From contig NZ_BMQQ01000005.1 in assembly GCF_014648195.1 (NCBI RefSeq), positions 122,012 to 186,011 of the forward strand: a DNA stretch of 64,000 nucleotides, in the 5' to 3' direction. The position numbers and the translations under genes are program-made. This document shows positions 24,670 to 60,702 of the stretch, in pieces. The stretch's first letter is position 1, and each line of letters begins with the position of its first letter. Source of the stretch: Streptomyces purpureus. Lineage in GTDB: Bacteria; Actinomycetota; Actinomycetes; Streptomycetales; Streptomycetaceae. Under the pieces are notes generated by a model, which worked only from the letters and a program-made list of their open reading frames with translations, searched no databases and was not told the origin of the DNA.

Positions 24670-25923
24670 TCAGCCGAGATCCGTGAGCCACGCCTCGATC
24701 GCGGACAGTCCCCGCGCGCCAGCCTGCGGCATGAAGTGAGTGTACGTCCGGAGCGTGAACGCCGGGTCGGAGTGCCCCAGCCACTTCGCGAGCGAGACGA
24801 TCGACTCGCCGGCTTCGAGCATCACCGAGGCGTACGTGTGGCGCAGGACGTGGAAACCGTGCTCGCGGCTCGGCTCCCATACACGCGACGGCTTCTCGCC
24901 CGGCTGCCGCTCGGGCAGCGGCGAGATGACTCCCACGTCGGCGAGCGCCGGCTTCCACGCCTTGGTGTTCCAGGTGGTGCGGTTGATCGCGCCGCGCCGC
25001 CCGGTGTACACGAGCAACGGGACGGTCACCTTGCGCCGGTCCTCGCGTGCAAGGTCGGGCTCCTCGGGGTCCAACCACGGCAGGGTGACGTCGATCGGTT
25101 CGAAGCGTTCCTGGTGGGTGAGGAGCCGTTTCGCGAGCACGTTCGGCAGAGGCACGTCACGTTCCTTGCCGCCCTTGGGCGGGCCGAAGTACAGCCGCGA
25201 TTTGTACATGAGGATCTGGCGCTCGACGTGCACGAAGTCGCCGTGGACGTCGTTGGGACTGAAGCCGAACACCTCACCCTGTCGGAGTCCGCATCCGACG
25301 CCGAGATCGAGCGCGATCTGGTAGCGGTCGGCCAGCGCCTCCCGTACGGCGTCGACACGGTCCTGCTCCCATGCTCGAGCCTTGCGCTCCGGCTTCTTCG
25401 GCGGCTTGATCGAGCTGTTGCCCTTGCACGGGTTGCGGTAGAGCCGCTTGTCCTCGACCGCGGCCTGCATGATCGCCTTGAGGTACACCCACGCGACATA
25501 GGCCGTACTCGACGCCACCGCCCTCTGAACGTCGGCCGACCACTTGCGCAGCTCCGCGACGCCAATGTCCCTGAGCGCCAGGTCTCCGAGCTGCGGCAGC
25601 ACCTGCCCCCAGATCCGGTGCCTCATGCTTTCCAGCGTCTGGGCGGAATGCACCTGGGACGGCCACCAGTGCTTCTCGACGTACTCACGAAGGCTGATCG
25701 CACCGTCTCGCGCGTCGACGAAATCCCCACGCCGCGCGTCGGTCTGCGCCTCGGCCAGCCACGCCTTGGCGTCCGCGACCGTGTCGAAAGAGCGGTCGCG
25801 GACCCCTGGTATCCCCTTGACCCGATAGCGCGTGCACTTACCCCACAGAGCGGTGCGTTCGCGCTTGCCCGTCTCCTTGTTCGGTCGCTTCTTGAGCCAC
25901 CGGTCTTCGATGTAACCCGCCAT
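24670..25923 (-). CDS. int: Tyrosine site-specific integrase
   Basis: A 417-aa phage/ICE-type tyrosine recombinase. An arm-binding N-terminus and a SAM-like core-binding domain (about 70-190) precede the catalytic domain. Catalytic residues are visible: Arg in GCGLRQGEV, His358-x-x-Arg361 in HVLRHTYAS, His384 in WLGHSDP and nucleophile Tyr394 in LRTYTHF. It should recombine attP with the rnpB 3' end. It ends 86 bases from attL, the usual adjacency, and is 108 bases downstream of the excisionase gene on the same strand. Confidence 0.95.
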   Translation of the reverse strand: MAGYIEDRWLKKRPNKETGKRERTALWGKCTRYRVKGIPGVRDRSFDTVADAKAWLAEAQTDARRGDFVDARDGAISLREYVEKHWWPSQVHSAQTLESMRHRIWGQVLPQLGDLALRDIGVAELRKWSADVQRAVASSTAYVAWVYLKAIMQAAVEDKRLYRNPCKGNSSIKPPKKPERKARAWEQDRVDAVREALADRYQIALDLGVGCGLRQGEVFGFSPNDVHGDFVHVERQILMYKSRLYFGPPKGGKERDVPLPNVLAKRLLTHQERFEPIDVTLPWLDPEEPDLAREDRRKVTVPLLVYTGRRGAINRTTWNTKAWKPALADVGVISPLPERQPGEKPSRVWEPSREHGFHVLRHTYASVMLEAGESIVSLAKWLGHSDPAFTLRTYTHFMPQAGARGLSAIEAWLTDLG

Positions 25924-39060: not shown

Positions 39061-39134
39061 AGCTCCTGTTCACTGGGGGTCACGCGCCATGGACTCCGCC
39101 GCACACAGCACACCCCACCGGAGGAGAACCGAGC

Positions 39135-42084: not shown

Positions 42085-42093
42085 CGCAACGAA

Positions 42094-42137: not shown

Positions 42138-42182
42138 CGGCGTCTGCGGCCCGCCGGCCCCGGGCTCTCTTTGCTCTCATGA

Positions 42183-42932: not shown

Positions 42933-43497
42933 GGTGCGGTTCTCTCTTTCCGCGGGGACGGTCGTGCGGGATTCCGCGTTCCCGGAACACCGCGCACGTC
43001 GGCTTGATTCGCTCCCGGAAGCCACAGAAGCAGCCGCCTGCGGAGAGCGATGGGCTGGAGAGTAACCACCATTCTCGGCCGCACCTAATGGCGCTCTGCC
43101 GCCGCATCACGGGCCTCGACTGCCAGACGTGGCGTCGTTTGGTGCGGCCGGAATTCGTCTCTACAGTCTCGCCGTGTTCGACGGACCGGGGTCGCCCTCC
43201 CACCCTGTTGAGCTGTGTTGATGCGTGTTGCCTCGTCCAGATGGCAGCACGGGCAGCATCCGCGAAGCGGTCTGATATTTAGGCGAGGCGTTTTCTCTAT
43301 GTGGCGCGTGAGATTAAGAGCGCGGCTGGCTGCCGCCCTCCAGTAGAGAGGTGCCCAGGGGTCGGGAGTTAGCCGCTCCCGACCCCTGGACCTCCATTCC
43401 CTGATCTCAAGGGTTGTGAATTTCCGACCGGTGCGGTGCCGGTGACCTTTTCGACGAGAACGCTGGTGCCGCGCTGCCTACGAGTAAGGAGCTGCTG
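42933..43497. other. Divergent intergenic region before the transfer operon
   Basis: About 565 bases without a clear gene, separating the methyltransferase from the transfer genes. It should contain their divergent promoters. The main visible structure is a perfect 14-bp inverted repeat at 43355-43389 (separate entry). The composition around 43270-43330 is lower in GC than the flanks, which suits a promoter, but I cannot name hexamers with confidence. Confidence 0.5.
43355..43389. terminator. 14-bp perfect hairpin upstream of the transfer operon
   Basis: CCAGGGGTCGGGAG (43355-43368) and CTCCCGACCCCTGG (43376-43389) form a perfect stem with a 7-base loop. No T-run follows. It lies about 110 bases before a short leader frame, so it may be an attenuator, an mRNA-stabilising 5' hairpin or an operator rather than a simple terminator. 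Confidence 0.55.
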
Positions 43498-43575
43498 ATG
43501 CAGCATGCCCAGGCACGCCCTTCCCCAGAGCCCGGCTCCTGCGCCCTCGGTTCGGCGGACGGCCCTCAGCTGTGA
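43498..43575 (+). CDS. Short leader peptide coupled to the VirB1-like gene
   Basis: A 25-codon frame (MQHAQARPSPEPGSCALG...) starts at ATG 43498 after AAGGAG and ends with TGA at 43573-43575. This overlaps the GTG start of the next gene (43572) in a GTGA arrangement. The downstream gene has no ribosome binding site of its own, so ribosomes finishing the leader probably re-initiate there. The peptide has no domain. Confidence 0.5.
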   Translation: MQHAQARPSPEPGSCALGSADGPQL

Positions 43576-44702
43576 AGGCGGGCGCGGCGATAGTCGGGGC
43601 CGTCGCTCTCGGCCCGCTGCTGCTGGTCGCCCCGCTCGCGATGGCTCTGGCCGGCGCGTCCAGCGCCCAGGCCGCCTGCGCGAACGGCAATACACAGGCT
43701 GTGGATTCTGCGGCGGTTGCCAAGCAGGTGGATTCGATCCTCAAGGGCGGCGGCGGCAAGGCCACAGTGTCCGTCCCGGGGCTGGACGATCCCGCGGAGC
43801 AGATCCCGAACGCCAAGACGATCCAGGCCACCGGCGTCGCCATGAAGGTGCCGGCCCGGGGCCAGGTCGTGGCTCTGGCCACAGCCTTGCAGGAGTCGGG
43901 GCTGCGGAATCTCGACTACGGCGACCGGGATTCACTCGGTCTCTTCCAGCAGCGCCCCAGCCAGGGCTGGGGAACGGCCCAGCAGATCCGCGATCCGGTG
44001 CACGCGTCGACAAAGTTCTACGAGGCGCTGCTGAAGGTCCCGGGCTGGCAGTCCATGACCGTCACGCAGGCGGCGCAGGCGGTCCAGAAGAGCGGCTTCC
44101 CCGACGCGTACGCGAAGTGGGAGCCGCTGGCCACGGCCCTACAGAAGGCCATCGCCACGTCGCTGTCCGCAGGGTCGAGTTCCGACACGGGCGACAAGAC
44201 CGACCCGACGGATGCGACGCCCGGCGCGTGCGGCACTGGCGAGGACGGTGCCAAGTTCGGTCCGATCCCTGCCGGCTCCGTCCCCAAGGACTACAAGATC
44301 CCGGCTGATGCGCCCAAGTCGGTCCGCACCGCCATCCGCTGGGGTCTCGGTCAGCTCGGCACTCCGTATCAGTGGGGTGGCGCGTGTACCGATCCGCGCG
44401 GCCAGGACCCGATGGGCCGCTGCGACTGCTCGTCCCTGATGCAGATGTCGTACAAGGCCGGGGGCGTCTCGATCTCCCGGACCACGTACACGCAGGTCAA
44501 GGAGGGCAAGGCGGTCAGCGTCGATGCCCTCAAGCCGGGCGATCTCCTCTTCACTCGCGGCACGGCCCAAGTCCCGGAACACGTAGGGATGTTCATCGGT
44601 GACGGCCTGATTCTGCATGCTCCGCGTACCGGTGACGTGGTCAAGATCTCGACTCTCGCCGACTGGCGGCCGGACGTGCTCGCCGCCCGCCGGATCGTCT
44701 GA
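43572..44702 (+). CDS. VirB1-like bifunctional peptidoglycan hydrolase (lysozyme-like + NlpC/P60)
   Basis: A 376-aa exported protein. After a signal peptide (first 35 residues, ending SSAQA-AC) a lysozyme-like domain has a probable catalytic glutamate in ATALQESGLRNL, then DSLGLFQQRPSQGWGT. From about residue 255 an NlpC/P60 cysteine-peptidase domain follows: GTPYQWGGAC, nucleophile in RCDCSSLMQMSY and histidine in EHVGMFIGDG. It should open the cell wall for the type IV channel, like VirB1/TcpG proteins. The GTG start is coupled to a short leader frame. Confidence 0.9.
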   Translation: MKAGAAIVGAVALGPLLLVAPLAMALAGASSAQAACANGNTQAVDSAAVAKQVDSILKGGGGKATVSVPGLDDPAEQIPNAKTIQATGVAMKVPARGQVVALATALQESGLRNLDYGDRDSLGLFQQRPSQGWGTAQQIRDPVHASTKFYEALLKVPGWQSMTVTQAAQAVQKSGFPDAYAKWEPLATALQKAIATSLSAGSSSDTGDKTDPTDATPGACGTGEDGAKFGPIPAGSVPKDYKIPADAPKSVRTAIRWGLGQLGTPYQWGGACTDPRGQDPMGRCDCSSLMQMSYKAGGVSISRTTYTQVKEGKAVSVDALKPGDLLFTRGTAQVPEHVGMFIGDGLILHAPRTGDVVKISTLADWRPDVLAARRIV

Positions 44703-45800: not shown

Positions 45801-47171
45801 ATGGGGGCTTGCGACCTTCCTCTGATGAGTACGGTCTGCGACACCGTAGGCGGTGTCGTCGGCGCGACCGGCGAAGCCGTCACGGACGGCATCGGCGCCT
45901 GGATCGCCAAGTCGATGGGCGAGATGGCCCAGGCCGCAGCTGACCTGGCCTCGAAGGCCGTCGACAAGACCACCGCCATCGATCTCAACGCCGAGTGGTT
46001 CAGGAGCAACTACGAACTGATCCTGCCCATCGGCCTCATCCTCACCGTCGGCACGTTCTGCCTCCAGCTCACCCGCGCCGCCTGGCGCCGGGACGAACGC
46101 GCCCTCGCTCAGGCGGTATACGGAACAGTGGCCGGCGTCCTGTTCGCGTTCGCCGCCATCGCCTGCACCACCGTCGCGATCACCGTGGTCGACGCGCTCA
46201 GCGCCGGCCTGTTCAAGGCCGCCAACAGCTCCGTAGACGACGCGGTACGCCGCATCATCAAGGTCAACGAGTTGGGGGCGATGTACGGCCTGGGCTGGGG
46301 CGTCCCCGCCATCGTCGCACTCGGCTGCGCGGTCGGCGCCTTCCTCTACTGGGCGGTGATGGTCGCCCGCAAGGTCGGCATCCTGGTCCTGGTCACCCTG
46401 GCCGTGTTCGCCGGGGCCGGCGGCGGCTGGGAGGTCGCGCGGCGCTGGCGGCGCGGCTGGATCGAGGCGACCAGCACCCTGATCGTCTCCAAGCTCCTGA
46501 TGACCATCGTGTTCCTGCTGGGCGTCTCCGCCATGGGCAAGACCGACGCGAGCGACGGTCTGAGCGCCCTGTCGGACGCGATCGCGGGCATCGTCGTGAT
46601 GGTCCTGGTGCTGCTCTGCCCCTACGCCACGTACAAATTCGTGCACTGGGCGGCCGACGGCGGCGGCCACGACGATCTGCACCGCACCGGTGTCGCGGGC
46701 ATGGCGGTCGCCGCGGGTGCGGCGAAGACCGCAGGCCAGCTCGCGGTCCAGGCCGGCACGGGAATGCGGGCTCCGCAGGGACCGGCAAAGGTGCCGGGCC
46801 AGGGCTCCGGTGGCGTCGCCTCCGGGATCGACCCGACGGGCGGATCCAGTGGTGAGGCCAAACCGAAGCAGACCCACTTCCGCTTCGGTGAGGATCCGAA
46901 CGCGACCGGCGACAAGGGCCGGGCGCTGATCCGCCGTCCTCCCACGGACGGCGACCGCGGAGTCCCGCTCATCCAGCGCCCCGGTGGCAGCGAGGCGTCC
47001 GACTCGGCGCCGGCGCTCTCCGGGCCTACACCACAGGGCGCCTCGGTCTCGGTCCCGCAGGTCACGCACCTGGACCCGCCGGCACCACGGCGCAGCGGTC
47101 CTCCTCCGCAGGGTGGCGCCACCCCGCAGCGGTGGATCTATCCCGGGCCAGCGGACCGCTCGGGCTCGTAG
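45801..47171 (+). CDS. VirB6/TrbL-like polytopic transfer channel protein
   Basis: A 456-aa protein with an N-terminal amphipathic stretch, six or so membrane segments between about 70 and 290 and a long Pro/Gly/Ser-rich, probably disordered C-terminal tail. This is the topology of VirB6/TrbL channel subunits in Gram-positive T4SSs. The ATG at 45801 follows AAGGAGG. It stands between the VirB8-like and SCO6880-like genes, the usual order in actinobacterial elements. Confidence 0.72.
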   Translation: MGACDLPLMSTVCDTVGGVVGATGEAVTDGIGAWIAKSMGEMAQAAADLASKAVDKTTAIDLNAEWFRSNYELILPIGLILTVGTFCLQLTRAAWRRDERALAQAVYGTVAGVLFAFAAIACTTVAITVVDALSAGLFKAANSSVDDAVRRIIKVNELGAMYGLGWGVPAIVALGCAVGAFLYWAVMVARKVGILVLVTLAVFAGAGGGWEVARRWRRGWIEATSTLIVSKLLMTIVFLLGVSAMGKTDASDGLSALSDAIAGIVVMVLVLLCPYATYKFVHWAADGGGHDDLHRTGVAGMAVAAGAAKTAGQLAVQAGTGMRAPQGPAKVPGQGSGGVASGIDPTGGSSGEAKPKQTHFRFGEDPNATGDKGRALIRRPPTDGDRGVPLIQRPGGSEASDSAPALSGPTPQGASVSVPQVTHLDPPAPRRSGPPPQGGATPQRWIYPGPADRSGS

Positions 47172-49249: not shown

Positions 49250-50755
49250 ATGCCCACCCGAACCACCCGCGCCAGCGCCAGCCCACTGTTCGTCCCTCGC
49301 AAGACCGACCGCCGCACGGCCCGCGCAGCACGCGACCAGTTCGCCGCCGCCCGCGACAAGGCCCGCCACGCCGCCCGGCCCGAAGTCCGCCATACCACGA
49401 CCGGCATCGATCCCGAACTGCGCGCCACCTACCCGGCCGCTGGCCGCTCCGGTCCCACCTCCGCCCGCGGCGGCCTGCTCAAGCTCCCCGCCCACCGGAT
49501 GACCACAGCCACCGCCTCCGGTGCCTACCCCTTCCTCGCCGAGGGCGGCCTCGGCGCCCAGGGCATCTACGTGGGCCGTGACGTGCACGCGGAGGCCGCC
49601 TTCACCTACGACCCGTTCGCGCTCTACGGACGGCTCGACGGCTTCACGAATCCGAACATTCTGCTCGCCGGGGTCATCGGCATGGGCAAGTCCGCCCTGG
49701 CCAAGTCCCTCGCCGTACGAGCCGTGGCCTTCGGCTACCACATCTACGTGCCCTGCGACCCCAAGGGCGAATGGACCGTGGTCGCCCAGGCGCTGGGCGG
49801 GCAGACCATCGCACTCGGCCCGGGCCTTCCCGGCCGGCTGAATCCACTGGACGCCCCCGCCCGGCCGTACGGCGTCAGCCAGGACGACTGGGCCGGCGAG
49901 GTCCGCAAGCGACGCCTGCTTCTCCTCGGCTCCCTCGCGAAGACCGTTCTGCGGCGCGACCTGCACCCGATGGAGCACACCGCCCTGGACGTGGCACTCG
50001 ACCAGGCGGTCGCCCACGCCGAAGCAACCGGCACCACCCCGCTGCTCGGAGACATCGCGTACGTACTCGGCGCACCCGAGCGGCTCAACACCGCACTCGG
50101 TGACCTGTCCGGACGCCTCGGACGCGCGGCCGAGGACCTGGCCCACGCGCTGCGGCGCCTCGTCCACGGCGACCTGGCCGGCATGTTCGACGCGCCAAGC
50201 ACCGTCGCGTTCGACCCGGCCGCGCCGATGCTCTCCATCGACCTTTCCCGGCTCGGCGGCACCGGCGACGACACCGCGCTCGTCCTGGCGATGACCTGCG
50301 CCTCCGCGTGGATGGAGTCCGCGCTCGCCGACCCCACCGGTGGACGGCGCTGGGTGATCTACGACGAGGCATGGCGCGTGATGCGGCACGTCGCCCTGCT
50401 CGAACGCATGCAGAGCCAGTGGAAGCTCAGCCGGGGCCTCGGCATCGCCAACATGATGGTCATCCACCGCCTCAGCGACCTGCTCACCGCGGGCGACGCC
50501 GGATCCCGGGGCCGCGCCCTCGCCGAGGGCCTGCTCACCGACTGCTCCACCCGCATCATCTACCGCCAGGAAGCCGACCAACTCGGCTCCGCCGCCGCCC
50601 TGTTGGGTCTCACCGGCGTCGAGACCCAGGCCGTCTCCGCCCTCACCAAGGGGCGCGGCCTGTGGAAAGTCGCAGGCCGGTCGTTCATTACTCAACATCT
50701 GCTCCACCCGCACGAGCGCGAGCTGTTCGACACGGATGCCCGGATGCACACCTGA
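49250..50755 (+). CDS. VirB4-like T4SS ATPase (C-terminal part)
   Basis: A 501-aa RecA-like ATPase. A basic N-terminus (about 1-50) leads to the Walker A motif GVIGMGKSAL (141-150), and Walker B is in RRWVIYDEAW with MVIHRLSDL (motif 3) after it. It corresponds to the C-terminal motor half of VirB4, its N-terminal half apparently being supplied by the SCO6880-type protein. It powers assembly or substrate passage of the mating channel. The ATG at 49250 follows GGAG. Confidence 0.88.
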   Translation: MPTRTTRASASPLFVPRKTDRRTARAARDQFAAARDKARHAARPEVRHTTTGIDPELRATYPAAGRSGPTSARGGLLKLPAHRMTTATASGAYPFLAEGGLGAQGIYVGRDVHAEAAFTYDPFALYGRLDGFTNPNILLAGVIGMGKSALAKSLAVRAVAFGYHIYVPCDPKGEWTVVAQALGGQTIALGPGLPGRLNPLDAPARPYGVSQDDWAGEVRKRRLLLLGSLAKTVLRRDLHPMEHTALDVALDQAVAHAEATGTTPLLGDIAYVLGAPERLNTALGDLSGRLGRAAEDLAHALRRLVHGDLAGMFDAPSTVAFDPAAPMLSIDLSRLGGTGDDTALVLAMTCASAWMESALADPTGGRRWVIYDEAWRVMRHVALLERMQSQWKLSRGLGIANMMVIHRLSDLLTAGDAGSRGRALAEGLLTDCSTRIIYRQEADQLGSAAALLGLTGVETQAVSALTKGRGLWKVAGRSFITQHLLHPHERELFDTDARMHT

Positions 50756-50858: not shown

Positions 50859-51050
50859 ATGCACCTGAAGCGCACCATCCGTCGCGGCCTGCGCCGCCTC
50901 GTCCAGCTCTACGCCGACGCCGCTCGCGCCCACACCGCACACGGCCATGCCTCCGTAACCCCCAGCCCGTGCGATCCCGTGGACGCGACACGGCCAGAGA
51001 CCGACCGGCGCCCTGACGCGCACGACGAGGGCGAGACCCACCATGGCTGA
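50859..51050 (+). CDS. Small basic protein, 63 aa
   Basis: A 63-aa protein beginning MHLKRTIRRGLRRLVQLYAD, an amphipathic basic helix, then a Pro/Asp-rich tail. It overlaps the next gene by eight bases, which suggests coupled translation. AGGAAG lies 10-14 bases before the ATG. No family is recognised. Confidence 0.5.
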   Translation: MHLKRTIRRGLRRLVQLYADAARAHTAHGHASVTPSPCDPVDATRPETDRRPDAHDEGETHHG

Positions 51051-52410
51051 GCTGGCATGGATCACGCTGGGCAAGCACCCTCAGCTCGGCCTCACCGCCG
51101 CCACCCTCCACGACGACTTCGGCTCCGCGAACCGGCTGCTGCTCGATGCCGGATTCTCCACCGGGCATCCCGACTTCGCCTATGCCCTCGGCGACAGCCG
51201 TCCGGACGAGGTCCGGGCGACGCTTCAGCAGCTCTACAGCACCGTGGCCAGCCACTACGTCGCCATCGACGACGCCTCGCTCGACGGCCCCATGCACACC
51301 AGCCCTGCGCCGCCACGTGGTTCAGAGCCCGCGCACCCGCCGCCCCCGTCACCGCGCCAGCCGGGCTCGCGGGCGGCCGATCTCACCCGGTTCGCCGAGG
51401 AGCTGTCGGGTCGGCTCCCCGGCTCCTGGACTGCCACCGTCCACGAACACGCGGCAGAGGGAGGCCAGCTCCCGCTCAGCGAACGGGTCTGGGATTGCGG
51501 CCACGTGAGCTGGGCCCTCTCCGAGTTCACCCCACATCGAAGCGCCGTGCTCACCGGTGACTCAGGGATCGAGCTCCTGGTCACCGACCGCCCCCTGCGC
51601 AAGCACGAATTCCTCATCGCCGCGTTCGAGCCACGAGGCAGCGTGTTCGACACGACCACCAAGACACCCAACGGCATCGTCGTGAGCAACGACCCGATGC
51701 GAGCCGCCTCCCGAGTGACAACCCGCCTGCTGCCCCGGTACCACGAGGCCGTCCGCGAGACCCGGCTCAGCCAAGTCGCCAAGTCGGTGGCTGCCGGCCA
51801 GCGCGTTCTGGCCGAATGGGACGCGGTCTCGGACAGCCTGTGCGATGCCGATCACTGGCCGCTCGACGAGCGGTACGGCCTGCGCCAACAGGTACGGGAC
51901 GCGGAAATGTGGGCGCAGTTCGCTCCCTTCCTCGAGCACGGTCCCACCCTGGTCGCGCACGCCGAGGAAGAGCTTCCTCTCCTTGATCCCGCGGAGCGTG
52001 CGGCCGGGCGCTGGGCGTACCGGCTCCGTGCCTTGCGCGAGGCACTGGACGGCGGCGCCCGGGTGCAGGCCGAGTTCCAGGTGGTCGCCGAGGCGCTCCT
52101 GCCCGACCATCCTCGCTCGAAGGCGGTGTTCGCGGACGCCGTGGCCGTGCGCAACGCCGAGGGCTGGCACTACTCCCTGACCTGGATGGACAACGCCGGC
52201 GTCCTCGTCGACATCGCGCGCGCCGACAAGGCGCCGCCCGCGCCACCGACCCGACCGCTCCGTGCGCAGCAGGTCCGGTCGCCACGCGCCGAGGCTGCCC
52301 TTTCCTGGTCGCCACACGCCGCCCGCCAGATCACCGCGGCGATCGAGAAGAACGCCGGTCCGCCGGCCATCCGCTTCTTCAACTCCAGCAGGCCGCCGCG
52401 CTCACGCTGA
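51043..52410 (+). CDS. Accessory protein A of a five-member paralogous family (455 aa)
   Basis: A soluble 455-aa protein. Residues 5-80 (ITLGKHPQLGLTAATLHDDF then LLLDAGFSTGHPDFAYAL) form the domain shared with four smaller neighbours at 53728, 54219, 55540 and 56277. The middle part includes a second strand-rich domain (about 110-240) and a helical region with charged pairs (240-380). The end is a disordered stretch terminating in RPPRSR. No known domain or catalytic motif is evident. It lies between the VirB4-like gene and an IS-like insertion; transfer function is inferred from position only. Confidence 0.68.
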   Translation: MAELAWITLGKHPQLGLTAATLHDDFGSANRLLLDAGFSTGHPDFAYALGDSRPDEVRATLQQLYSTVASHYVAIDDASLDGPMHTSPAPPRGSEPAHPPPPSPRQPGSRAADLTRFAEELSGRLPGSWTATVHEHAAEGGQLPLSERVWDCGHVSWALSEFTPHRSAVLTGDSGIELLVTDRPLRKHEFLIAAFEPRGSVFDTTTKTPNGIVVSNDPMRAASRVTTRLLPRYHEAVRETRLSQVAKSVAAGQRVLAEWDAVSDSLCDADHWPLDERYGLRQQVRDAEMWAQFAPFLEHGPTLVAHAEEELPLLDPAERAAGRWAYRLRALREALDGGARVQAEFQVVAEALLPDHPRSKAVFADAVAVRNAEGWHYSLTWMDNAGVLVDIARADKAPPAPPTRPLRAQQVRSPRAEAALSWSPHAARQITAAIEKNAGPPAIRFFNSSRPPRSR

Positions 52411-52630
52411 CTAGCTCCGTACTTCGCGGGTCACTCATTTGCACAGCCCCCGAGCTTGATCACGGTCCTCAGGTGATCGTGCTTCGGCGGGTTCTGCAAC
52501 TCGGACCGCTGCGCTGATCGGTGGCTGGCCCGCTGCGATCAGTTGATCTTCCCGAATGGGTGACCTGCGGAGAAGGATCTAGCGCCGGGGCACCCGTCCA
52601 CCAGTGGCACTACCCGCAGTACGCCCTCAC

Positions 52631-53020
52631 TCAGCAGTCGTAGCTCTTGAGCGTCTTCGAGGCACCGGTGGCCGACTTCAGGTAGTCGTTCTCCGACTTC
52701 AGGCTCTGGTTCTCCGACTTCAGGATCTCGTTCTCCGCCGTCGACTCCGCCAACTGCACGACCAGTCCGGCAGCCATGGACAGGAGCCCCTCGTGCTTCG
52801 TCTGGAGCTCCTTGTACTTCCAGGCGAGGACTCCGATGGTGGTGGCCGCCAGAACGCTGGCGCCGGCCTTAACCACGCCCCTGGCTTTGCCGGACTTACC
52901 TCCGGCTGGCCCGGCACCGTCCTTGCCGATGCAAACGTGGCCCGTCTGGTGCGAGTGTTGTTGAGCCTCACCGAGATGGTCGCTCTGATACGAGCACGAT
53001 CCGCATTGGTAATGGGTCAT
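52631..53020 (-). CDS. Zinc-finger, membrane and coiled-coil protein
   Basis: A 129-aa protein beginning with a C2H2-like finger (CGSCSYQSDHLGEAQQHSHQ, then TGH). A Gly/Lys-rich linker leads to a hydrophobic segment (about 52-67, AGASVLAATTIGVLAW). A coiled coil in heptads rich in Leu, Lys, Ser and Glu follows (NEILKSENQSLKSENDYLKS, about 97-117). The ATG at 53020 has GGGGGAGAGGA upstream. It lies within the IS-like segment, so it may be cargo. Function unknown. Confidence 0.62.
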   Translation of the reverse strand: MTHYQCGSCSYQSDHLGEAQQHSHQTGHVCIGKDGAGPAGGKSGKARGVVKAGASVLAATTIGVLAWKYKELQTKHEGLLSMAAGLVVQLAESTAENEILKSENQSLKSENDYLKSATGASKTLKSYDC

Positions 53021-53213
53021 CAGTCGTTCCTCTCCCCCCGGGGAGATGAGCTTGCCACAGGTCACGTGCCTCCGGCGTCCACTTGGTCATCCTCCGTACG
53101 TCCACCAACGCTGAGGGAAGGATGCGCACCTACACGGGCGTGCGCGCCCGCTAGTTGTGACCTATGCCGTCAACGCTCCCAGGAGGGCGCATGGCGCGGC
53201 ACGGGTAGCTCGT

Positions 53214-53624
53214 TCAGGTCTCTGGCCAGCGTGGGTGCGTCGGTTCCAGGCCGAGGAGGTCGAGGAGATGGAGCTGGACGCTGCGGCTGATGACGATGAT
53301 GGGCGGGTTGGTGGCGCCGACGACGCGTAGCCGCAGGCCGGAGAGATGGTAGAGGATCACCGGCCGGTGGGCCGGACCTGCTAGTTGCCGGATAGAGCCC
53401 GAGCATCTTCTGGTGGCTCCCGAGGGCCCGGCGGACCTGGCGCTCGATCGGCAGCGACAGGCAGAGCGCCCAGTCGCTTTTCCACCACGGCGCTGACGAC
53501 ACATTCCATGCGCGGACGCACCGTCCGTGGCCGCGGGGACCGGGAAAAGTTCGTCACGCCCCACCAATGCGGCCACGGCCCCAACAGATACTCCCACAGG
53601 CCCCGAACCAGCCGATTCAGTCAC
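53214..53624 (-). pseudogene. Decayed gene in the IS-like segment
   Basis: Three minus-strand frames between about 53600 and 53214 give protein-like pieces: one around WPHWWGVTNFSRSPRPRTVRPRM, one around LCLSLPIERQVRRALG and one around RPVILYHLSGLRLRVVGATN. They are in different frames and connect only through frameshifts. A transposase or small cargo protein is possible, but I do not recognise one. Treat as a remnant. Confidence 0.4.
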
Positions 53625-53727
53625 CCGCGAAGTACGGAACTAGCGCGAATCCACGGCCACACCAAATCCGCCTTTCGGCCGCATCCTCGTCCTCCGCACG
53701 GCCCCGACCTCTGCGAGGTGCATCTTC

Positions 53728-54192
53728 GTGGCGGAAACACGTCCGCACATCACCGTCGGCCATCACGACCAGTACGGCGTCGTGGCGGCGACGTCGCACG
53801 ACAACCACGTCGCCGAGCACATCCTGCGGCTCGTCGGCTTCGAGCGGCTGCCCGGCAGCACGCTGTACGGGCTGACCGATCCGCAGCGTGATCCGGTACG
53901 GCGCGGGGCGCAGGCGGTCCAGTCCCTGCGGGCCGCGCAGTACAGGGTCAACGCCGATGTCGCGTACGACCTCCAGCCCCATACCCGGCTCGGCACGGGC
54001 CGGGGCCTCCTGGAGCGGCTGGAGAAACCTTCCGCCTCACCGGTGGCGCCTGCGGCCCAGCAGCGCAGGTCCCAGGCCGCCACCGCCATCTCTCCGGCCC
54101 GCGCGACCGCGACGCCGGCGCGGCAGCCCGGCGTCGCCGTCGAGTACCGCCCTGCCCCCTCCGCCGCCCCGCAGCCGGTCCGCACCCGCTAG
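53728..54192 (+). CDS. Accessory protein B of the five-member family (154 aa)
   Basis: A 154-aa protein. Residues 8-85 (ITVGHHDQYGVVAATSHDNH, then LVGFERLPGSTLYGL and LRAAQYRVNADVAYDL) match the shared domain: a strand with His-x-x-x-Gly, helix, Gly-Phe turn, Tyr-x-Leu strand and second helix. The rest is an Ala/Pro/Gln-rich disordered tail ending PVRTR. The start is GTG at 53728 with GAGGTG about nine bases upstream. Function unknown; it lies between VirB4- and VirD4-like genes. Confidence 0.68.
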   Translation: MAETRPHITVGHHDQYGVVAATSHDNHVAEHILRLVGFERLPGSTLYGLTDPQRDPVRRGAQAVQSLRAAQYRVNADVAYDLQPHTRLGTGRGLLERLEKPSASPVAPAAQQRRSQAATAISPARATATPARQPGVAVEYRPAPSAAPQPVRTR

Positions 54193-54218
54193 ACCGTCCC
54201 CACCAAGGAGCCCGCGCG

Positions 54219-54992
54219 ATGACTCTGCAACTCGAACCGGAAGTCGCGTTCGGAATGCACCCCGACTACGGGGTGGCCGCCGCCGTCGCGGACGCCCGAC
54301 CGTTCCTCGACGAGGTCCTGCGCAAGCACCACTTCCGCTACAGCGAGTACCTCGACGTCTACCTGCTGGCGGACGACACTCCCCACAACACGGCGGTGCG
54401 GACCGTGGCCAGGGCGACCCGCGAATTCCAGGACGCTGGTCTGTCGGTCGCAGCCGATCCCAGGATCATGATCCCGCCGCCGGTCCCGACTCCGGACGGA
54501 GTCGCGGCGCGGGCGACACGGCCCGGCCAGTCCGTTACCGCGCTGACCGGCGAGCTGCACGAGCTGCGTCGCGCGGCGGACGTCTCCGAGGTCCTGGGAG
54601 AGATCCTCGACGAACACCACGGCGTCGTGCTCGACCTGGAGGAGTTCATCGACACGGCCGCCGCCTGGTGCGAGCGGCTCGACACTCCGCATGGTCACGA
54701 GCTGGGCCTTCATCTGCGCAACATCGCCCATCACGTCGCCTTCCTCGGCGACCGGCTCGTCGGCGCCCAGCTCGAACTGGCTGTCATGCCCGACGTGCCC
54801 CCCGAGAACGCCCCACCCCTGGCTGAGGTGCCGCTGCCCGAGCGGCAGGAGTGGCTCCGGGTCACGCACACCGCGCGAGCGCGCGCCGCCATGGCGTCGT
54901 CCCCCAACCGCCCGGCCAACGCACCGAAGCCGCAGGACGAGCCGGTGCCGCGCATCCAGGCAACGCCGACTGCCTCGAGTCGTACGCGCTGA
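54219..54992 (+). CDS. Accessory protein C of the five-member family (257 aa)
   Basis: A 257-aa protein. The shared domain covers residues 7-80 (VAFGMHPDYGVAAAVADARP through GLSVAADPRI). A second, helical domain (about 105-200: LTGELHELRRAADVSEVLGE, LDLEEFIDTAAAW, LRNIAHHVAFLG) resembles the corresponding part of the paralogue at 55540. The final 45 residues are Pro/Ala/Asn-rich and end TASSRTR. The ATG at 54219 has AAGGAG nine bases upstream. Function unknown. Confidence 0.68.
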   Translation: MTLQLEPEVAFGMHPDYGVAAAVADARPFLDEVLRKHHFRYSEYLDVYLLADDTPHNTAVRTVARATREFQDAGLSVAADPRIMIPPPVPTPDGVAARATRPGQSVTALTGELHELRRAADVSEVLGEILDEHHGVVLDLEEFIDTAAAWCERLDTPHGHELGLHLRNIAHHVAFLGDRLVGAQLELAVMPDVPPENAPPLAEVPLPERQEWLRVTHTARARAAMASSPNRPANAPKPQDEPVPRIQATPTASSRTR

Positions 54993-55026
54993 TCCTCCCT
55001 TTCTCGACGTTCAAGGAGTCCGGCTC

Positions 55027-55524
55027 ATGGCCGTGAAGAAGTTCTGGACCATCGACCACGCCTGCGGTCACACCGTCGAGGCCGATCTGTCCGACCGTCC
55101 GGCCGACCGCCGTGCTGGATACGCCCGCTGGCTCGCCGGCCGGGACTGCGCCGACTGCTGGCGGACCTCTCGCCCGGAGGACCCCGAGGCCACGGCCGAG
55201 TGGCTCGCGAAGCAGAGGGTGACCGAGCAGGCCGAGGCCGAGGCGTGGTCCGAGCAGTACCGCATGCCCCCGCTGGACGGCACCGACCGCGCGGTCGCCT
55301 GGGCCACCCGCTGTCGCCACCAGCTGGTCTCCGCCGCGTACACCGCGCTCGTCGTCGAAGGAACCACGAGCGAGACGGAGTGGGAGGCCATCGAGGACGC
55401 CGTACGGCTACTGACCCGCGCCGGCTGGTGGCTCGACCAGCGTGACGCCGACCCCGCGGACCTGCCCGAGCTGCTGGACGCCGCCTCCACCAGCGACCGG
55501 CCGACCGAGAACCCCCACTACTGA
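55027..55524 (+). CDS. Small zinc-ribbon-like hypothetical protein (165 aa)
   Basis: A 165-aa protein with a possible metal site made of CGH (HACGHTVEADL) and CADC (GRDCADCW) about 30 residues apart, followed by helical sequence rich in Trp and Glu. It sits inside the paralogue array but does not share its N-terminal domain or R-[S/T]-R end (it ends TENPHY). The ATG at 55027 follows AAGGAG. Function unknown. Confidence 0.6.
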   Translation: MAVKKFWTIDHACGHTVEADLSDRPADRRAGYARWLAGRDCADCWRTSRPEDPEATAEWLAKQRVTEQAEAEAWSEQYRMPPLDGTDRAVAWATRCRHQLVSAAYTALVVEGTTSETEWEAIEDAVRLLTRAGWWLDQRDADPADLPELLDAASTSDRPTENPHY

Positions 55525-55539
55525 ACGGACCACCACACG

Positions 55540-56247
55540 ATGCCCACCCCGCCCGACGTCGTCATCACACGCCATCCGACCGGCAATGTCACCGCCGAAG
55601 GCGGAGACGAACTCGCCACCACACTCCTCAAGCGCGCGGGCTACGTCATCGAGACAACGCCCCGGTCCTTCTGGTACCGCCTGCCCTGGGACATGGGCGA
55701 AGCCCGCGAGAACCAGATGGCCAGCCACGCGGCCCGCATGCTCAGCGCCGTCGGCTACCGCGTCGACCTCGGCCCCGATCTGCACGTGGGCCCCCTCACG
55801 ACGCCCTCCGACCCTCAGGGGAAACACGTCCTCGGCCACCAGGTCCTGCGGCTGACCGACGAACTCAACGGCGCCGAGGCGTACGAGACTGCCGCTGATC
55901 TCGCGGAGCACGTCCTGGACCCCCACGATGGTGTGCTCGTCCGCCTCAGTGAGTTCTTCGAGGCTGCCGCCGAGCAGGCCAAGGCATCCGAGACCGATGC
56001 CGGTTGGGATCTGTCGTACGACTTCGCGGAAGCCGCCGCGACGCTCACCGCCCTCGGCGAAGAACTGCACGACGCCACCGACCAGCTGCGCTCACTCAAT
56101 CGGCCGGCGAAGCCGAGCTGGCAGGCACGGGTCGCCAACTACTACGCGACCACCCCGGCCACCCAACGCACCGGAACACCCGCCGTCACACCCGAGGGGT
56201 CCGCTGCCGCTCCACCGCCCGCGTCCAGGCCGAACCGAACGCGCTGA
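55540..56247 (+). CDS. Accessory protein D of the five-member family (235 aa)
   Basis: A 235-aa protein. The shared domain covers residues 5-82 (VVITRHPTGNVTAEGGDELA, LLKRAGYVIETTPRSFWYRL, MLSAVGYRVDLG). The second domain (about 105-200: LTDELNGAEAYETAADLAEHV, LVRLSEFFEAAAE, LTALGEELHDATDQL) matches protein C. The C-terminal 40 residues are Thr/Pro/Ala-rich and end RPNRTR. It starts 15 bases after the preceding stop, in one operon. Function unknown. Confidence 0.68.
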   Translation: MPTPPDVVITRHPTGNVTAEGGDELATTLLKRAGYVIETTPRSFWYRLPWDMGEARENQMASHAARMLSAVGYRVDLGPDLHVGPLTTPSDPQGKHVLGHQVLRLTDELNGAEAYETAADLAEHVLDPHDGVLVRLSEFFEAAAEQAKASETDAGWDLSYDFAEAAATLTALGEELHDATDQLRSLNRPAKPSWQARVANYYATTPATQRTGTPAVTPEGSAAAPPPASRPNRTR

Positions 56248-56276
56248 CCAATCCCCTTCATCAGAGAGGCCGTTGC

Positions 56277-56714
56277 GTGTCCATCCTGCACGAAGAGTAC
56301 GGAACCGACGCCGAGATCTACCGCAAGCCGTTCAGCAACGAGGTGATCGCCGACTGCGGTGACCCGCGCGCCCACGAGGTGCTTGCCACGTGCGGCTTCG
56401 TGAAGAAGACCGTCCCGCCACACTACGTCTGGCACCAGCTGCCCGACGGACTGCCCGAGGAGGAACAAGCGCGGCGCGCCACGCGCGCCGCGTGCCTCCT
56501 GCGCGCCCGGGGCTTCGACGCGAACGTCGCCGAGGACCTGGTCTCCGAGGAAGCCGTCGCCGCCGTACGCGACGAGGTCCGGCGGCACCGGATCAGCGGC
56601 GCGGCCACGTCGTCCTCGTCGACCGTCGGTCCGGGCGCGCCACCGGCGCGCCCGGACACCACGGCCCCGGCCGCGCCCGCGGCTTCCTCCATCTCCGCCC
56701 ACCGCAGCCGCTAG
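56277..56714 (+). CDS. Accessory protein E of the five-member family (145 aa)
   Basis: A 145-aa protein. Residues 10-85 (AEIYRKPFSNEVIADCGDPR, VLATCGFVKKTVPPHYVWHQ, LLRARGFDANVAEDLV) are the most diverged copy of the shared domain. A short basic helix and a Ser/Ala/Pro-rich disordered tail follow, ending SAHRSR. The GTG at 56277 has GAGAGG eight bases upstream. It directly precedes the VirD4-like gene. Function unknown. Confidence 0.65.
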   Translation: MSILHEEYGTDAEIYRKPFSNEVIADCGDPRAHEVLATCGFVKKTVPPHYVWHQLPDGLPEEEQARRATRAACLLRARGFDANVAEDLVSEEAVAAVRDEVRRHRISGAATSSSSTVGPGAPPARPDTTAPAAPAASSISAHRSR

Positions 56715-56791: not shown

Positions 56792-58591
56792 TTGTCTCCT
56801 GCACGCACCAGCACACCCTCGACCGCCACCGCCACCGGCACCGACTTCCTGCTGTACCTGATGCTGTCCGTCGCCGGCCTCGGCATGGGGGCCGGGACGC
56901 TGGCCTGGTTGTTCAGTAACGCCGCCAACACCCTCACCAGGTCCGGTTCCTGGGCCCCGTACGAGCCGACCGACGCGCTGCTCCACCCCCACGAGGTCTG
57001 GCCGCACCTTCCACAGCCGGTCCTCATCGGCGCCTGCTACGTCCTGCCCGCATTCGTACTCGTGGCCGCCGCGCTGCTCGGCGCGAAGGTGTGGCTGCGG
57101 CTGCGCCGCAACCCCAAGGGGCTGGCCGACCAGCGTGACCTGGCCGACCTGATGCCCAAGAAGATCGCGGCCAAGGCGATCGACCTCCGTCCAAGCCTCA
57201 AGGGCACCAAGCCCAAGGACGTCGTCCCCGACGACCGCGGCGTCCTGCTCGGCACGCTCACGCCCGGCGCGCGCGAGGTCCGCTCCTCGTGGGAGGACGT
57301 GATCCTGGCGATCATGGCACCCCGGTCCGGAAAGACCTCCGGCCTGGCGATCCCGGCGATCCTGCGCGCGCCCGGACCGGTGCTGCTGACCTCCAACAAG
57401 GCGGCCCGCGACGCCTACACCGCCACGCTCGCGGCCCGCGCCGAAGCCGGCACAGTCTGGACGCTCGATCCGCAGCAGATCGCCCACGCGCCCCAGACGA
57501 TGTGGTGGGACATCCTCGCGGACGCCCACGATCTCGCCGGAGCCCGCCGTCTGGCCGGGCACTTCGTGACCGCCTCCGTGGACGAGTCGAACGCGGGCGA
57601 CTTCTGGTCCACCGCCGCCGCGAACACGCTCACCGCGCTGTTCCTCGCCGCCGCCCGCGACCGGCGCCCGATCACCGACGTCCTGGCCTGGCTCGCCTCA
57701 CCGGCCGACCGCTCCCCCATCGACCTGCTCCAGGACGCCGGCCTCGACGCGGTCGCCGCCCAGCTCCAGGGCACCGTGGCCGGCGCCGTCGAGACCCGCG
57801 ACGGCATCTTCGAGACCGCTCGGCAGTACGCGAGCTGCCTGCTCGACCCGGCCATCGCCGCCTGGGTCACGCCGCCCAGCGGCCTCGGCAAGATCCGCGA
57901 GTTCAAGCCGGAGGCGTTCGCCACCGGCAAGGACACCCTGTTCCTGCTGTCGAAGGACGGCGGCGGCTCCGCCTCGGCGATCATCGCCGCCGCCGCCGAC
58001 GCGGTGATGCGCGCGGCCGTCATCCAGGCCGAGCGCGACGGCGGGCGGCTCGACGCCCCGCTGCTCGCGATCCTCGACGAGGCCGCCAACGTGTGCAAGA
58101 TCGCCGACCTGCCGGACCTGTACTCGCACCTCGGCTCCCGCGGCGTCATCCCGATCACGATCCTGCAGTCCTACCGCCAGGGCGTCCGGGTCTGGGGCGA
58201 GGCAGGGATGGACGCCCTGTGGTCAGCCGCGACGATCAAACTCGTCGGCTCGGGCATCGACGACGCCGACTTCGCGGACAAACTCAGCCGCCTGGTGGGC
58301 GATCACGACGTCCGTACGGTCTCGGTCTCCACCAGCGAGTCGGGCAAGTCCACATCGGTCTCCATGCGCCAGGAGCGCGTGCTGCCGGCGGATGCGATCC
58401 GCGCCCTGCGCAAGGGTTCCGCCCTGCTGCTGGCCACCGGCATCCGCCCCGCGCTCCTCGACCTCAAGCCCTGGTACCGGGAGCCGGACGCCGACCGGCT
58501 CGGCGCCGCGTCCGCCACGGCGACCGCGGCGATCACCGAGCGCGCGCTGGCCAAGAGCCGGCGCCGAGACGACTTCGGTCCGGCCGCATGA
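56792..58591 (+). CDS. VirD4/TraG-like coupling protein (T4CP)
   Basis: A 599-aa type IV coupling ATPase. Two N-terminal membrane segments (about 18-40 and 78-101) precede the motor: Walker A APRSGKTSG (176-184) and Walker B LLAILDEAANV. The GVIPITILQSYRQG strand with its Gln is also typical. It recruits the relaxosome and protein substrates to the mating channel. The start is TTG at 56792; the ribosome binding site is weak and no better in-frame start is close upstream. It follows the five-member accessory family. Confidence 0.88.
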   Translation: MSPARTSTPSTATATGTDFLLYLMLSVAGLGMGAGTLAWLFSNAANTLTRSGSWAPYEPTDALLHPHEVWPHLPQPVLIGACYVLPAFVLVAAALLGAKVWLRLRRNPKGLADQRDLADLMPKKIAAKAIDLRPSLKGTKPKDVVPDDRGVLLGTLTPGAREVRSSWEDVILAIMAPRSGKTSGLAIPAILRAPGPVLLTSNKAARDAYTATLAARAEAGTVWTLDPQQIAHAPQTMWWDILADAHDLAGARRLAGHFVTASVDESNAGDFWSTAAANTLTALFLAAARDRRPITDVLAWLASPADRSPIDLLQDAGLDAVAAQLQGTVAGAVETRDGIFETARQYASCLLDPAIAAWVTPPSGLGKIREFKPEAFATGKDTLFLLSKDGGGSASAIIAAAADAVMRAAVIQAERDGGRLDAPLLAILDEAANVCKIADLPDLYSHLGSRGVIPITILQSYRQGVRVWGEAGMDALWSAATIKLVGSGIDDADFADKLSRLVGDHDVRTVSVSTSESGKSTSVSMRQERVLPADAIRALRKGSALLLATGIRPALLDLKPWYREPDADRLGAASATATAAITERALAKSRRRDDFGPAA

Positions 58592-58928: not shown

Positions 58929-60103
58929 CCCCGCTCGTCCACGCCGAACAGGCCGTGCTGGGCGCGATCTTCCTAGAGCCCGGCCAACTCGACAGGCTCT
59001 CGCCCTGGCTGCGCCCGGAACACTTCTCCCGCCCCGCGCACACGGCGATCTACGCCGCGATGCTCCAGCTCAAGACCGACGGTCACCCGGCGGCAGCCAC
59101 AGCGGCCGGCTTCCCCGTCCCGCTGGCCTGGGTGACCGACACGCTGCGGGAGGCGAGCACACGGACCCGCGGGCTCACCGCCTCGTATCTGCACTCCCTC
59201 GCGTCGGCGTGCCCGCGCCCCGACCACGCCCCGGTGTACGGGCGGATGGTCCTGGAGGGGGCCATCCACCGCAGCGTGGCCCAGCACGCCGCCCGCCTCC
59301 ACCAGGCCGCGCTCGCCGACGCCGGGGCCGGCACGGTGGAGGAGACGCTGCACCACGCCCAGGTCCTGACTGACGTACTCGCCGACCTGGCGCGCGGCTG
59401 GGGCACGGAGGCACGTCCCGTGCAGCCGCCCGCCCCGTACGCACCCCAGGCCGAACGCCCTCAGCCGGTGGGCGAGCAGGTCCTCGCCGACGAGGAGTTC
59501 CTCCTCGGCTGCCTCGCCGCCCGCCCCGAACAGCTGCTCGGCCTGGTGCGCTGGCTCCGCCCCGGCGACTTCGCCGACCCGGGCCATCAGCAGCTCTACC
59601 GCGCGCTGGGGGCCCTGCACCATCGCGGCGAACCCATCGACCAGCTGACCGTGCTGTGGGAGACCCAGCGTCGCGGCACCCTCGCAGACGGGACGCTCGA
59701 CACCGAGCGTGTGATGCGGATCTGCGATCCGCTCGTGGGCGGGGCCGCCGAGCACATCGGCGAGCAGGTCGTCCACGCCTCCCTCGTCCGCACGGCCGCC
59801 CTCGCGGCCCGGCAGGTCGGCGCCCTGGCCAACCGCGACGCGCTCGCGCCCGGGCAGCTCATCGGCTACGCCCTGCACGCGCTCGGCCCGCTGAACGACG
59901 TACGCCGCCGACTGCGCCTCGCGCGCGAAGCCGAACCCGAGCAGCGGCGGCCGGCAAGCCGTCCCGGTGCGCCGCCTCCTGCCGCCCGTATCGACGCCGC
60001 CCGTGCTCGCAGCCGCCTCGCGGATGCGGCGGCCCCCGCGGCGCCGGTCGCGGCCTCCTGCGCCGCGCTTCCCTCCCGCCACAACCTTCGGAGTCCGTCA
60101 TGA
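58925..60103 (+). CDS. Tandem DnaB N-terminal-domain protein without helicase motor
   Basis: A 392-aa protein with two copies of the DnaB N-terminal fold. The first (about 5-125) starts HAEQAVLGAIFLEPGQLDRL, and the second (about 185-310) starts LADEEFLLGCLAARPEQLLGL. They share a common end pattern (VYGRMVLEGAIHRSV and IGEQVVHASLVRTA). There is no RecA-like motor domain. The C-terminal 60 residues are Arg/Ala-rich and disordered. It may bind the host replicative helicase or DnaG to load or inhibit it; that is inference. The start is GTG, four bases overlapping the previous gene. Confidence 0.7.
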   Translation: MTPLVHAEQAVLGAIFLEPGQLDRLSPWLRPEHFSRPAHTAIYAAMLQLKTDGHPAAATAAGFPVPLAWVTDTLREASTRTRGLTASYLHSLASACPRPDHAPVYGRMVLEGAIHRSVAQHAARLHQAALADAGAGTVEETLHHAQVLTDVLADLARGWGTEARPVQPPAPYAPQAERPQPVGEQVLADEEFLLGCLAARPEQLLGLVRWLRPGDFADPGHQQLYRALGALHHRGEPIDQLTVLWETQRRGTLADGTLDTERVMRICDPLVGGAAEHIGEQVVHASLVRTAALAARQVGALANRDALAPGQLIGYALHALGPLNDVRRRLRLAREAEPEQRRPASRPGAPPPAARIDAARARSRLADAAAPAAPVAASCAALPSRHNLRSPS

Positions 60104-60702
60104 CCGACCACACCGGCCGCGCCGGCCTGGAGAAGGACGAACTGTACGCAGTGGCCCTGGAGTTCGAGGAGGCCCGCCACGAGATTGTCGGGTCGTACAC
60201 AACGAACTCCCTGCCTGACCTCGTCACCGCGTCCCACCACCTCGCCGCGCTGACGGGGCTGGTGAAGGACCTGTCCGACGAGGTTCTCTTCCGCGTCACC
60301 GACAACGACCCGGGCCTCGACTTCGGTCCGGTCATCGCCGCGTACACCAGCGCGTCCGCCCCGGCGGGACGCGCCGTGACCAACTACACTGAAGCCTTCG
60401 AGCAGCTCGGCTTCCTGCGCCAGCACGCGGAAGCCCCAGCCTCGCCAGACCTCCGCGACGCCCGCCAGGCCGCGTTCGACGTCGTGCAGGACCGGCTGGA
60501 CCTCACCGTGGACTCGCTGCAGGAAGCCTTCGTCGCCCTGCGGCACGCGGCCGACCGGATCGACGGCACCCCGCCTCGTGTCCTCGCCGCGCTCAGCCGC
60601 TCGGCACGCCCAGCGAACTCGATCTACCGTGTCCCGGCCGAGCTGCCCGCGACCGAGCCGACCCGTCTCGCCTACATGCCGGTGTCCCGCCATGCGCGCT
60701 GA
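60100..60702 (+). CDS. Helical hypothetical protein, 200 aa
   Basis: A 200-aa soluble, mostly helical protein (LYAVALEFEEARHEIVGSYT, DLTVDSLQEAFVALRHAADR). It overlaps the DnaB-N protein by four bases (ATGA) and ends in a basic tail (PVSRHAR) reminiscent of, but not identical to, the R-[S/T]-R ends of the accessory family. No known family. Confidence 0.58.
   Translation: MTDHTGRAGLEKDELYAVALEFEEARHEIVGSYTTNSLPDLVTASHHLAALTGLVKDLSDEVLFRVTDNDPGLDFGPVIAAYTSASAPAGRAVTNYTEAFEQLGFLRQHAEAPASPDLRDARQAAFDVVQDRLDLTVDSLQEAFVALRHAADRIDGTPPRVLAALSRSARPANSIYRVPAELPATEPTRLAYMPVSRHAR

Follow-up and report, generated by a model that had tools for sequence, protein, structure and literature searches.

A C-terminal R-x-R end common to an array of N-domain proteins and to unlinked protein families of Streptomyces type IV secretion conjugative elements: a possible docking or export tag

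The stretch of DNA analysed here, a window of 64,000 nucleotides from Streptomyces purpureus (contig NZ_BMQQ01000005.1, positions 122,012 to 186,011) that is part of a 7.54 Mb genome, contains an array of five genes, here named A to E, lying between the VirB4-like and VirD4-like ATPase genes of a type IV secretion system (T4SS). The products of these genes share an N-terminal domain (the N-domain) and each of them ends in two arginines separated by a single residue (R-x-R). This end is conserved at the level of the protein, recurs on families without detectable homology to the N-domain proteins, is nearly absent from the proteins of the secretion machine itself, and is linked to VirB4 and VirD4. 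The explanation that we favour, at a probability of roughly 0.48, is that R-x-R constitutes a C-terminal docking or export tag for the VirD4 protein and T4SS of the element, carried by proteins that would be sent with the DNA to help in its establishment.

All five open reading frames proposed in an earlier inspection of the letters alone (the sequence-only reading) were recovered, together with their ends RSR, RTR, RTR, RTR and RSR; A-E, and of the genes described below also F, the NlpC/P60, VirB6-, VirB4- and VirD4-like genes and those starting at 60100 and 63873, lie on the forward strand. Gene A (51043..52410; 455 amino acids) encodes an N-domain (51055-51267), a further domain and a tail ending in RPPRSR, with the R-S-R codons at 52399-52407, while B (53728..54192; 154 amino acids) combines an N-domain (53743-53952) with a Pro/Ala-rich tail ending in QPVRTR (R-T-R codons 54181-54189). 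Gene C (54219..54992; 257 amino acids) specifies an N-domain (54237-54452) and a helical domain shared with D, and ends in ASSRTR (codons 54981-54989); D (55540..56247; 235 amino acids) has the N-domain (55552-55767), the helical domain and a disordered tail ending in RPNRTR (codons 56236-56244). Gene E, with a GTG start (56277..56714; 145 amino acids), comprises an N-domain (56304-56525) and a tail ending in SAHRSR (R-S-R codons 56703-56711). The disorder that had been proposed for the tails agrees with the predicted model of D, in which the last 32 residues (204-235) are unstructured, with a predicted local distance difference test score (pLDDT) below 50.

The homology of the five N-terminal domains is borne out by a phmmer comparison of the whole proteins, which yields a chain of links between A and B (E 4e-7), B and C (0.002), C and D (7e-7, aided by the common second domain), and D and E (7e-7 and 1e-5), with no direct phmmer link at E 0.01 for A-C, A-D or A-E. 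An iterated profile seeded with A-E captures all five, the window domains scoring at E 4e-20 to 3e-28, values that are not independent because A-E belong to the training set. The second helical domain of C and D is likewise upheld by both sequence comparison and alignment, and also occurs in other elements on proteins without the N-domain. Searches of Pfam, NCBIfam and PHROGs gave no trustworthy match for A-E. In one homologous locus (L008:1735-2463) two N-domains are found in a single protein matching both A and B, as if it were an A-B fusion.

The N-domain profile matches 136 of the 392 Streptomyces genomes searched. Sixty stretches of up to 20 kb around N-domain matches (L041-L100) were drawn from 59 of the 136 matching genomes, picked by us among the matches listed, and were combined with 20 named homologous loci, every one of them from Streptomyces, and with the window, to give 81 Streptomyces loci. 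Genes were called with our own codon-usage script, which places starts and certain frames only approximately. Genes that were broken or misframed remained in the counts as negatives, while genes lacking a stop within their stretch, those with a coding score below 20 (below 15 in the family table) and families of fewer than five members were excluded. The caller left two of 80 stretches (L015 and L065) without a domain gene. Of the 298 domain genes obtained in this way, 273 had a stop codon and an adequate score, and dereplication via shared 4-mers left 127. The baseline consists of 356 chromosomal genes of one genome (349 at a stricter score).

Among the 127 dereplicated N-domain proteins, 63 end in R-x-R and 89 in R-x-R or RR (these two ends are together termed the tag below), as against four and nine, respectively, of the 356 chromosomal genes. 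Thus most homologues on other Streptomyces elements do keep the R-x-R or RR end. Arginine occupies the final position in 80% of these proteins and position -3 in 57%, versus 11% and 9% of the chromosomal genes, and shuffling the last 25 residues of the N-domain proteins produced a mean of 2.1 and a maximum of eight R-x-R ends against the 63 observed. For the array itself, the chance of R-x-R in all five genes is about 1e-10 if independence is assumed (from 4/349 chromosomal genes). In an alignment of 24 C/D-type sequences the final arginine is invariant, with a second one at -3 in 21 and at -4 in three (RHTR, RHTR and RHAR), and the linkers vary in length and letters while the arginine end persists. 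The composition of Streptomyces proteins as the cause of the end is ruled out by the chromosomal genes, by the shuffled tails and by the machine genes described below.

Since the arginine codons vary, selection on the R-x-R end acts on the protein. The five blastp communities that hold N-domain proteins contain 188 R-x-R ends with 89 distinct final 9-mers, in which all six arginine codons are used at -3 and five at -1. Single families show less codon variation, position -1 being always CGC in a family of VWA-domain proteins (22 members), c32 (11) and c19 (13), and position -3 always CGC in a family of MoxR-like ATPases (24). Within the array, the last three codons are CGC ACC CGC in B, CGT ACG CGC in C, CGA ACG CGC in D and CGC AGC CGC in E, and because these differ, the match among A-E is not due to a copied 3' end of DNA. 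Overlap with a downstream start is also ruled out as the cause, as each of the genes B to E stops before the following gene begins.

The same end is found on proteins of quite different kinds. Most of the remaining genes of the sample were unselected for their ends, since the stretches had been chosen for the N-domain (or, in the 20 named loci, for D). Among 419 dereplicated genes that lack the N-domain and lie outside the machine set (without the locus L021 and the window genes starting before 43000), 114 end in R-x-R or RR, compared with 9/356 in the baseline (Fisher 6e-24). Of the 43 families with at least five scored members 15 are tagged in their majority, and in 12 of these only 0-2% of the members have an N-domain. 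They include the MoxR-like ATPases (24/24 R-x-R) and the 599-residue VWA proteins (22/22 R-x-R), both named by eye and both consisting entirely of distinct sequences, as well as a 127-residue family (c20; 24/25 tagged) and a 257-residue family (11/12); these tag counts were not dereplicated, and distinct sequences were counted for nine families. At L020:15870-18808 and its equivalents, the MoxR-like ATPase gene is followed by the VWA-domain gene, and both end in R-x-R in every stop-bearing member. In a profile comparison of the families, using up to 40 sequences per family with their last 35 residues removed, c10 and c20 were found to share the helical domain of C and D (at 96% and 94%, respectively), and the other ten tagged families gave no link above 52% to the N-domain/helical group or to one another, the top residual link of 52% joining c15 with the B-type over 29 residues. 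Since only c10 and c20 among the 12 are linked to C/D once the tails are removed, the 15 tagged families represent about 11 groups without detectable homology.

The tag is also common among the SPDY/DUF317 (PF03771) proteins, most members of whose community end in RR or R-x-R, and one of which is a neighbour at L021:809-1684. Genes of this family were found in 18/18 genomes searched, mostly, by eye and among the matches listed, beside T4SS elements. These proteins resemble A-E in belonging to the same Streptomyces mobile elements and in their ends; they differ in that A-E have no match to PF03771 at E up to 1 and that the family profile comparison gives a probability of at most 1.8%, which rules out A-E being DUF317 proteins.

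The machine itself is nearly free of the tag: it is carried by none of 68 dereplicated machine genes (3/448 before dereplication), and the families untagged as such are VirB4, VirD4, VirB6, the NlpC protein, a DnaB-N protein, DUF4913, and ParB-like and glycosyltransferase-like proteins (the last two named by eye). An element stretch contains a median of seven tagged genes (range 1-15), whereas of 19 chromosomal stretches 12 have no tagged gene, six a single one and the remaining stretch three. VirB4, VirB6 or VirD4 is present in 75 of 80 stretches. In 30 genomes that we picked mainly for long contigs, the N-domain lies within 30 kb of VirD4 (a TraG-D_C match) in 29, among the matches listed. 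The exception, G012, has VirB4 and VirB6 adjoining the cluster with the VirD4 side missing; it (L086, L150) presents a decayed element in which the VirB half and the tagged cluster remain and other genes begin at the expected VirD4 half.

Relaxases, the normal substrates of such systems, were collected from 25 loci, corresponding to 24 genes and, after removal of two that had been reached by two routes, to 22 distinct proteins followed as far as their stop codon; PF03432 matched only 7/30 genomes, missing most relaxases of the larger elements, which were recovered by homology searches and from maps. Twenty of the 22 have a final arginine, which belongs to RR in 16 of them, to KTR or NTR in three and to PQR in one; the other two end in HRHRY and SPRQ. 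Fifteen of the 22 share a contig with a domain or D-type cluster and lie within 45 kb of it, 13 of these ending in arginine and 12 in RR. Two more relaxases from full element maps end in GKTR and RQTR. A separate set of 26 relaxase-like proteins of about 250-300 residues from larger elements (L042-L096, e.g. L094:13056-13904) often ends in RSP and otherwise in RSR or RRR. The histidines of the relaxase HIH motif have a catalytic role, and since the first is lost in 26/26 and the second in 25/26 of these proteins, they appear to be catalytically dead.

Beyond Streptomyces the picture changes. In a search of 394 genomes of the class, the N-domain was detected in 14, of which 12 belong to the same genus (the source genome included) and two are weak matches elsewhere, and VirB4 relatives were present in 151. 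Twenty stretches from 18 non-Streptomyces genomes were chosen by their VirB4 (identity 50-56% in 18 stretches and 41-42% in two), and no long tagged arrays were seen in them by eye. Four of their 14 tagged genes are VirB4 or VirD4 themselves; in L152, L155, L158 and L169 a VirD4 or VirB4 ends in RSWRAR, AALRRR, TTARMR and GAYARR. The wider expectation of the sequence-only reading, which looked to homologues on other actinobacterial T4SS elements, is therefore sustained in Streptomyces and is not borne out in the stretches sampled from other actinobacteria, the family being nearly confined to Streptomyces. With the sampled loci outside the genus near the baseline and devoid of long arrays, the tag seems to characterise the Streptomyces branch of these elements and not the motor family as a whole.

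In the favoured explanation, A-E are members of a large protein set that Streptomyces T4SS integrative conjugative elements encode. In each protein a folded part is followed by a Pro/Ala-rich, probably disordered linker and a terminal R-x-R-COOH, x usually being S, T, R, A or G; RR and R-x-x-R occur as variants. The layout of a docking tag is suggested by the combination of a short, exact C-terminal tip on a linker, its sharing by unlinked proteins and its near absence from the machine. The tag is most likely a docking signal recognised by the VirD4 coupling complex, for which the acidic protein F might serve as adaptor; any partner ought to be present in both types of element, which leaves VirD4, VirB4, the 48775 family and F as candidates, besides a host factor. 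Tagged proteins would then be loaded into the T4SS, travel with the relaxase-bound DNA and help to establish the element in the recipient. A stricter form of this explanation, in which R-x-R-COOH is a cargo label on unrelated domains, some 16-20 labelled proteins per element are loaded with the DNA, VirD4 and F are the readers, and the cargo serves establishment and spread in the recipient mycelium, is put forward more tentatively; a label serving the recipient mycelium would explain why the tag is found in Streptomyces and not in the sampled T4SS loci of other actinobacteria.

Export is our first choice because of known C-terminal arginine signals and of conjugation systems that send helper proteins. 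Effectors of the Agrobacterium VirB/D4 system have C-terminal arginine-rich signals (PMC8525350, PMC10025392), and conjugation systems also move proteins (PMC11288057; PMC8406263). The sequence-only reading had taken the ends of A-E for such signals, an interpretation that is now partly supported: it is strengthened by the presence of the same end on unlinked families and by relaxases ending mostly in arginine, and is held back by the form of the relaxase ends, which is not R-x-R. The Agrobacterium effectors VirF, VirE2, VirE3 and VirD5 are comparable in having a C-terminal, arginine-dominated signal and in being encoded with a VirD4 T4SS, whereas here the arginines lie exactly at -1 and -3, in many families, in Streptomyces, on proteins whose translocation is putative. 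As in signals of the Vergunst type, a C-terminal arginine is placed on an extended tail (the extension being modelled for D only) and the proteins are encoded with a VirD4 coupling protein. The tag may thus work like a C-terminal T4SS signal, yet A-E are not filed in the Agrobacterium class, because the spacing of its consensus is not that of A-E and their translocation is a prediction. The F-type plasmid pED208 co-transfers ParA, ParB1, ParB2, SSB, PsiA, PsiB and chromosomal proteins, which is similar in that helper proteins move with DNA; its signals, in the available portion of the source, are varied, C-terminal or internal, and share no tripeptide, while here one end is common to many families. 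The XVIPCD of Xanthomonas and the BID of Bartonella likewise provide one recognition module for several T4SS substrates, but are domains, whereas the tag of the Streptomyces elements is a tripeptide at the end of a linker that is probably disordered.

Several observations weigh against export. The consensus of the Vergunst-type Agrobacterium signal is R-x7-R-x-R-x-R, a spacing that A-E lack, their tails having arginines at -1 and -3 and otherwise only scattered ones. Among the N-domain proteins themselves 38/127 end in neither R-x-R nor RR, none of the 22 relaxases has a strict R-x-R end, and a lone final arginine without the tag is present in 21% of the 68 machine genes. In two mapped elements 20/82 and 16/61 genes are tagged, a large number, and the MoxR-like ATPase, VWA protein and DUF317 families are not obvious export cargo. 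In the VirB4/VirD4 loci outside Streptomyces only 14/337 genes end in R-x-R or RR, near the baseline, so that the end does not extend to the T4SS elements of actinobacteria in general, and since these related loci lack tagged arrays, these motors can work without them. Recognition by VirD4 or F, translocation by the T4SS and action in the recipient are steps that we infer.

The main rival, held to be less likely, is that the R-x-R tip gathers proteins of the element on one partner within the donor, for DNA processing or for running the machine, and nothing is exported; VirD4, F and the relaxosome are possible partners, as is some other conserved factor. The C-terminal tip of SSB is an analogous docking tip, of reversed charge. 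The comparative evidence fits such a donor-side hub equally well, and the hub explains nearly all of the same data: a tagged MoxR-like ATPase and VWA protein would suit an assembly machine, and F is acidic and kept in the same gene neighbourhood. Against it, relaxases, which must leave with the DNA, also mostly end in arginine; however, a relaxosome hub predicts these ends too, so that they hardly separate the two explanations.

It is improbable that the basic tip merely makes the proteins bind unspecifically to DNA, RNA or acidic lipids. The basic residues, and the resemblance of the N-domain model to the N-terminal domains of SF2 helicases, which is weak and does not rise above noise, are in keeping with such nucleic-acid or membrane contact. 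However, the arginine excess in N-domain proteins is confined to the last four positions, with a background share of 4-9% at -5 to -12; lysine occurs at -1 or -3 in 0/127 of them (histidine in three at -1 and in 13 at -3), and two tagged domain families, the A-type and the D-type, are net acidic at the median. The exact placement of arginine and the absence of lysine suit a binding pocket better than charge alone. A stability or processing tag, recognised by some protease or modifying enzyme that the host or the element encodes, which would agree with the position at the very C-terminus and the spread over unlinked families, is very improbable, as chromosomal genes rarely carry R-x-R or RR (9/356) and we know of no bacterial degron of this kind.

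Gene F (55027..55524), the sixth gene of the VirB4-VirD4 interval, whose content reads A, B, C, F, D and E in that order, encodes an acidic protein with N-terminal Cys/His residues that matches phrog_16123 and ends in ENPHY, without the tag. Its family (85 members) has a median net charge of -10 and is untagged, the commonest ends being NPFR (39/85) and NPHF (11/85), and in the elements read F stays inside this interval. The acidity and the constant place together make F a candidate coupling adaptor. In L081 and L086, F matches a protein of about 595 residues.

The predicted model of the N-domain (mean pLDDT 81.5) has the arrangement beta-beta-alpha-beta-beta-alpha-beta. Neither PDB nor BFVD yielded a Foldseek match to it at E <0.001, phage helicase entries being weakly similar (TM 0.45-0.61, E 0.4-1.6). 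In VIA comparisons, the N-terminal domain of XPB (Z 6.1; 2.3 A over 54-57 residues), aIF1 (Z 6.0, tied with XPB) and UvsW (Z 5.1; 2.9 A over 62 residues) all scored within the noise of the method. A resemblance to the DRD-like domains of XPB/UvsW helicases is accordingly to be taken as a lead and not as an assignment. For D, Foldseek against PDB found no match at E <0.001, and the helical-bundle scores of VIA (best Z 9.0) were within noise.

The genes of the T4SS occupy the window from about 43.5 kb onward, in the order NlpC/P60 protein, small pilin-like gene, VirB6-like protein, conserved gene at 47330, VirB4, array and VirD4, in accordance with the position claimed for the array. The NlpC/P60 protein (43572..44702; PF00877, E 5e-22) is probably VirB1-like, judging by its position. 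The VirB6/TrbL-like membrane protein (45825..47171) matches PF04610 at E 0.001, below the Pfam cut-off, and its place is conserved in sister elements. The VirB4-like ATPase (49250..50755) matches NF045971 at E 6e-19, below the curated cut-off, and ends untagged in DTDARMHT, as does the VirD4/TraG-like coupling ATPase (56792..58591; PF12696, E 7e-32) in DDFGPAA. An element protein at 60100..60702 ends in R-H-A-R (R-H-G-R in sister elements), with arginines at -1 and -4. A DUF317-related gene, its start inferred from L001, begins at 63873, exits the window at 64000 and continues to G000:C5:186789, where it ends in R-R-Q-R. Downstream of the window follow DUF317-type genes and a relaxase (G000:C5:192511-194259; PF03432, E 2e-6) with an adjoining NikA/MobC partner. 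With VirB4, VirD4, a relaxase and an accessory mobilisation protein all present, the host of the array has the conjugation genes of a T4SS integrative conjugative element.

In its left part lies an integrase-like gene on the reverse strand (24670..25923), so assigned by eye from the sequence, and no tRNA was found in the window. The cargo at 26681-43025 includes a Ser/Thr kinase-like gene and type I restriction-modification genes (both by eye) and a DNA methylase (PF01555, 42183-42932). The gap between A and B (52411-53727) measures 1317 bp versus 88 bp in the sister elements L001 and L003, and carries a reverse-strand open reading frame (52631-53065) with Cys/His residues and, by eye, a coiled-coil-like part; the extra DNA looks like an insertion.

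No published report of this tag was found in the open-licence literature searched, nor any paper on DUF317 in Streptomyces, and PMC12857230 has no occurrence of four signal terms. On the whole, three terminal residues predict, by sequence alone, one functional protein set of the Streptomyces conjugative elements. Should they prove to be an export signal, they would supply a sharply defined recognition motif of a Gram-positive T4SS and reveal a large set of proteins that accompany the DNA; should they instead mark a donor-side hub, they would still identify the partners of a machine for conjugation, most components of which lack a known function.

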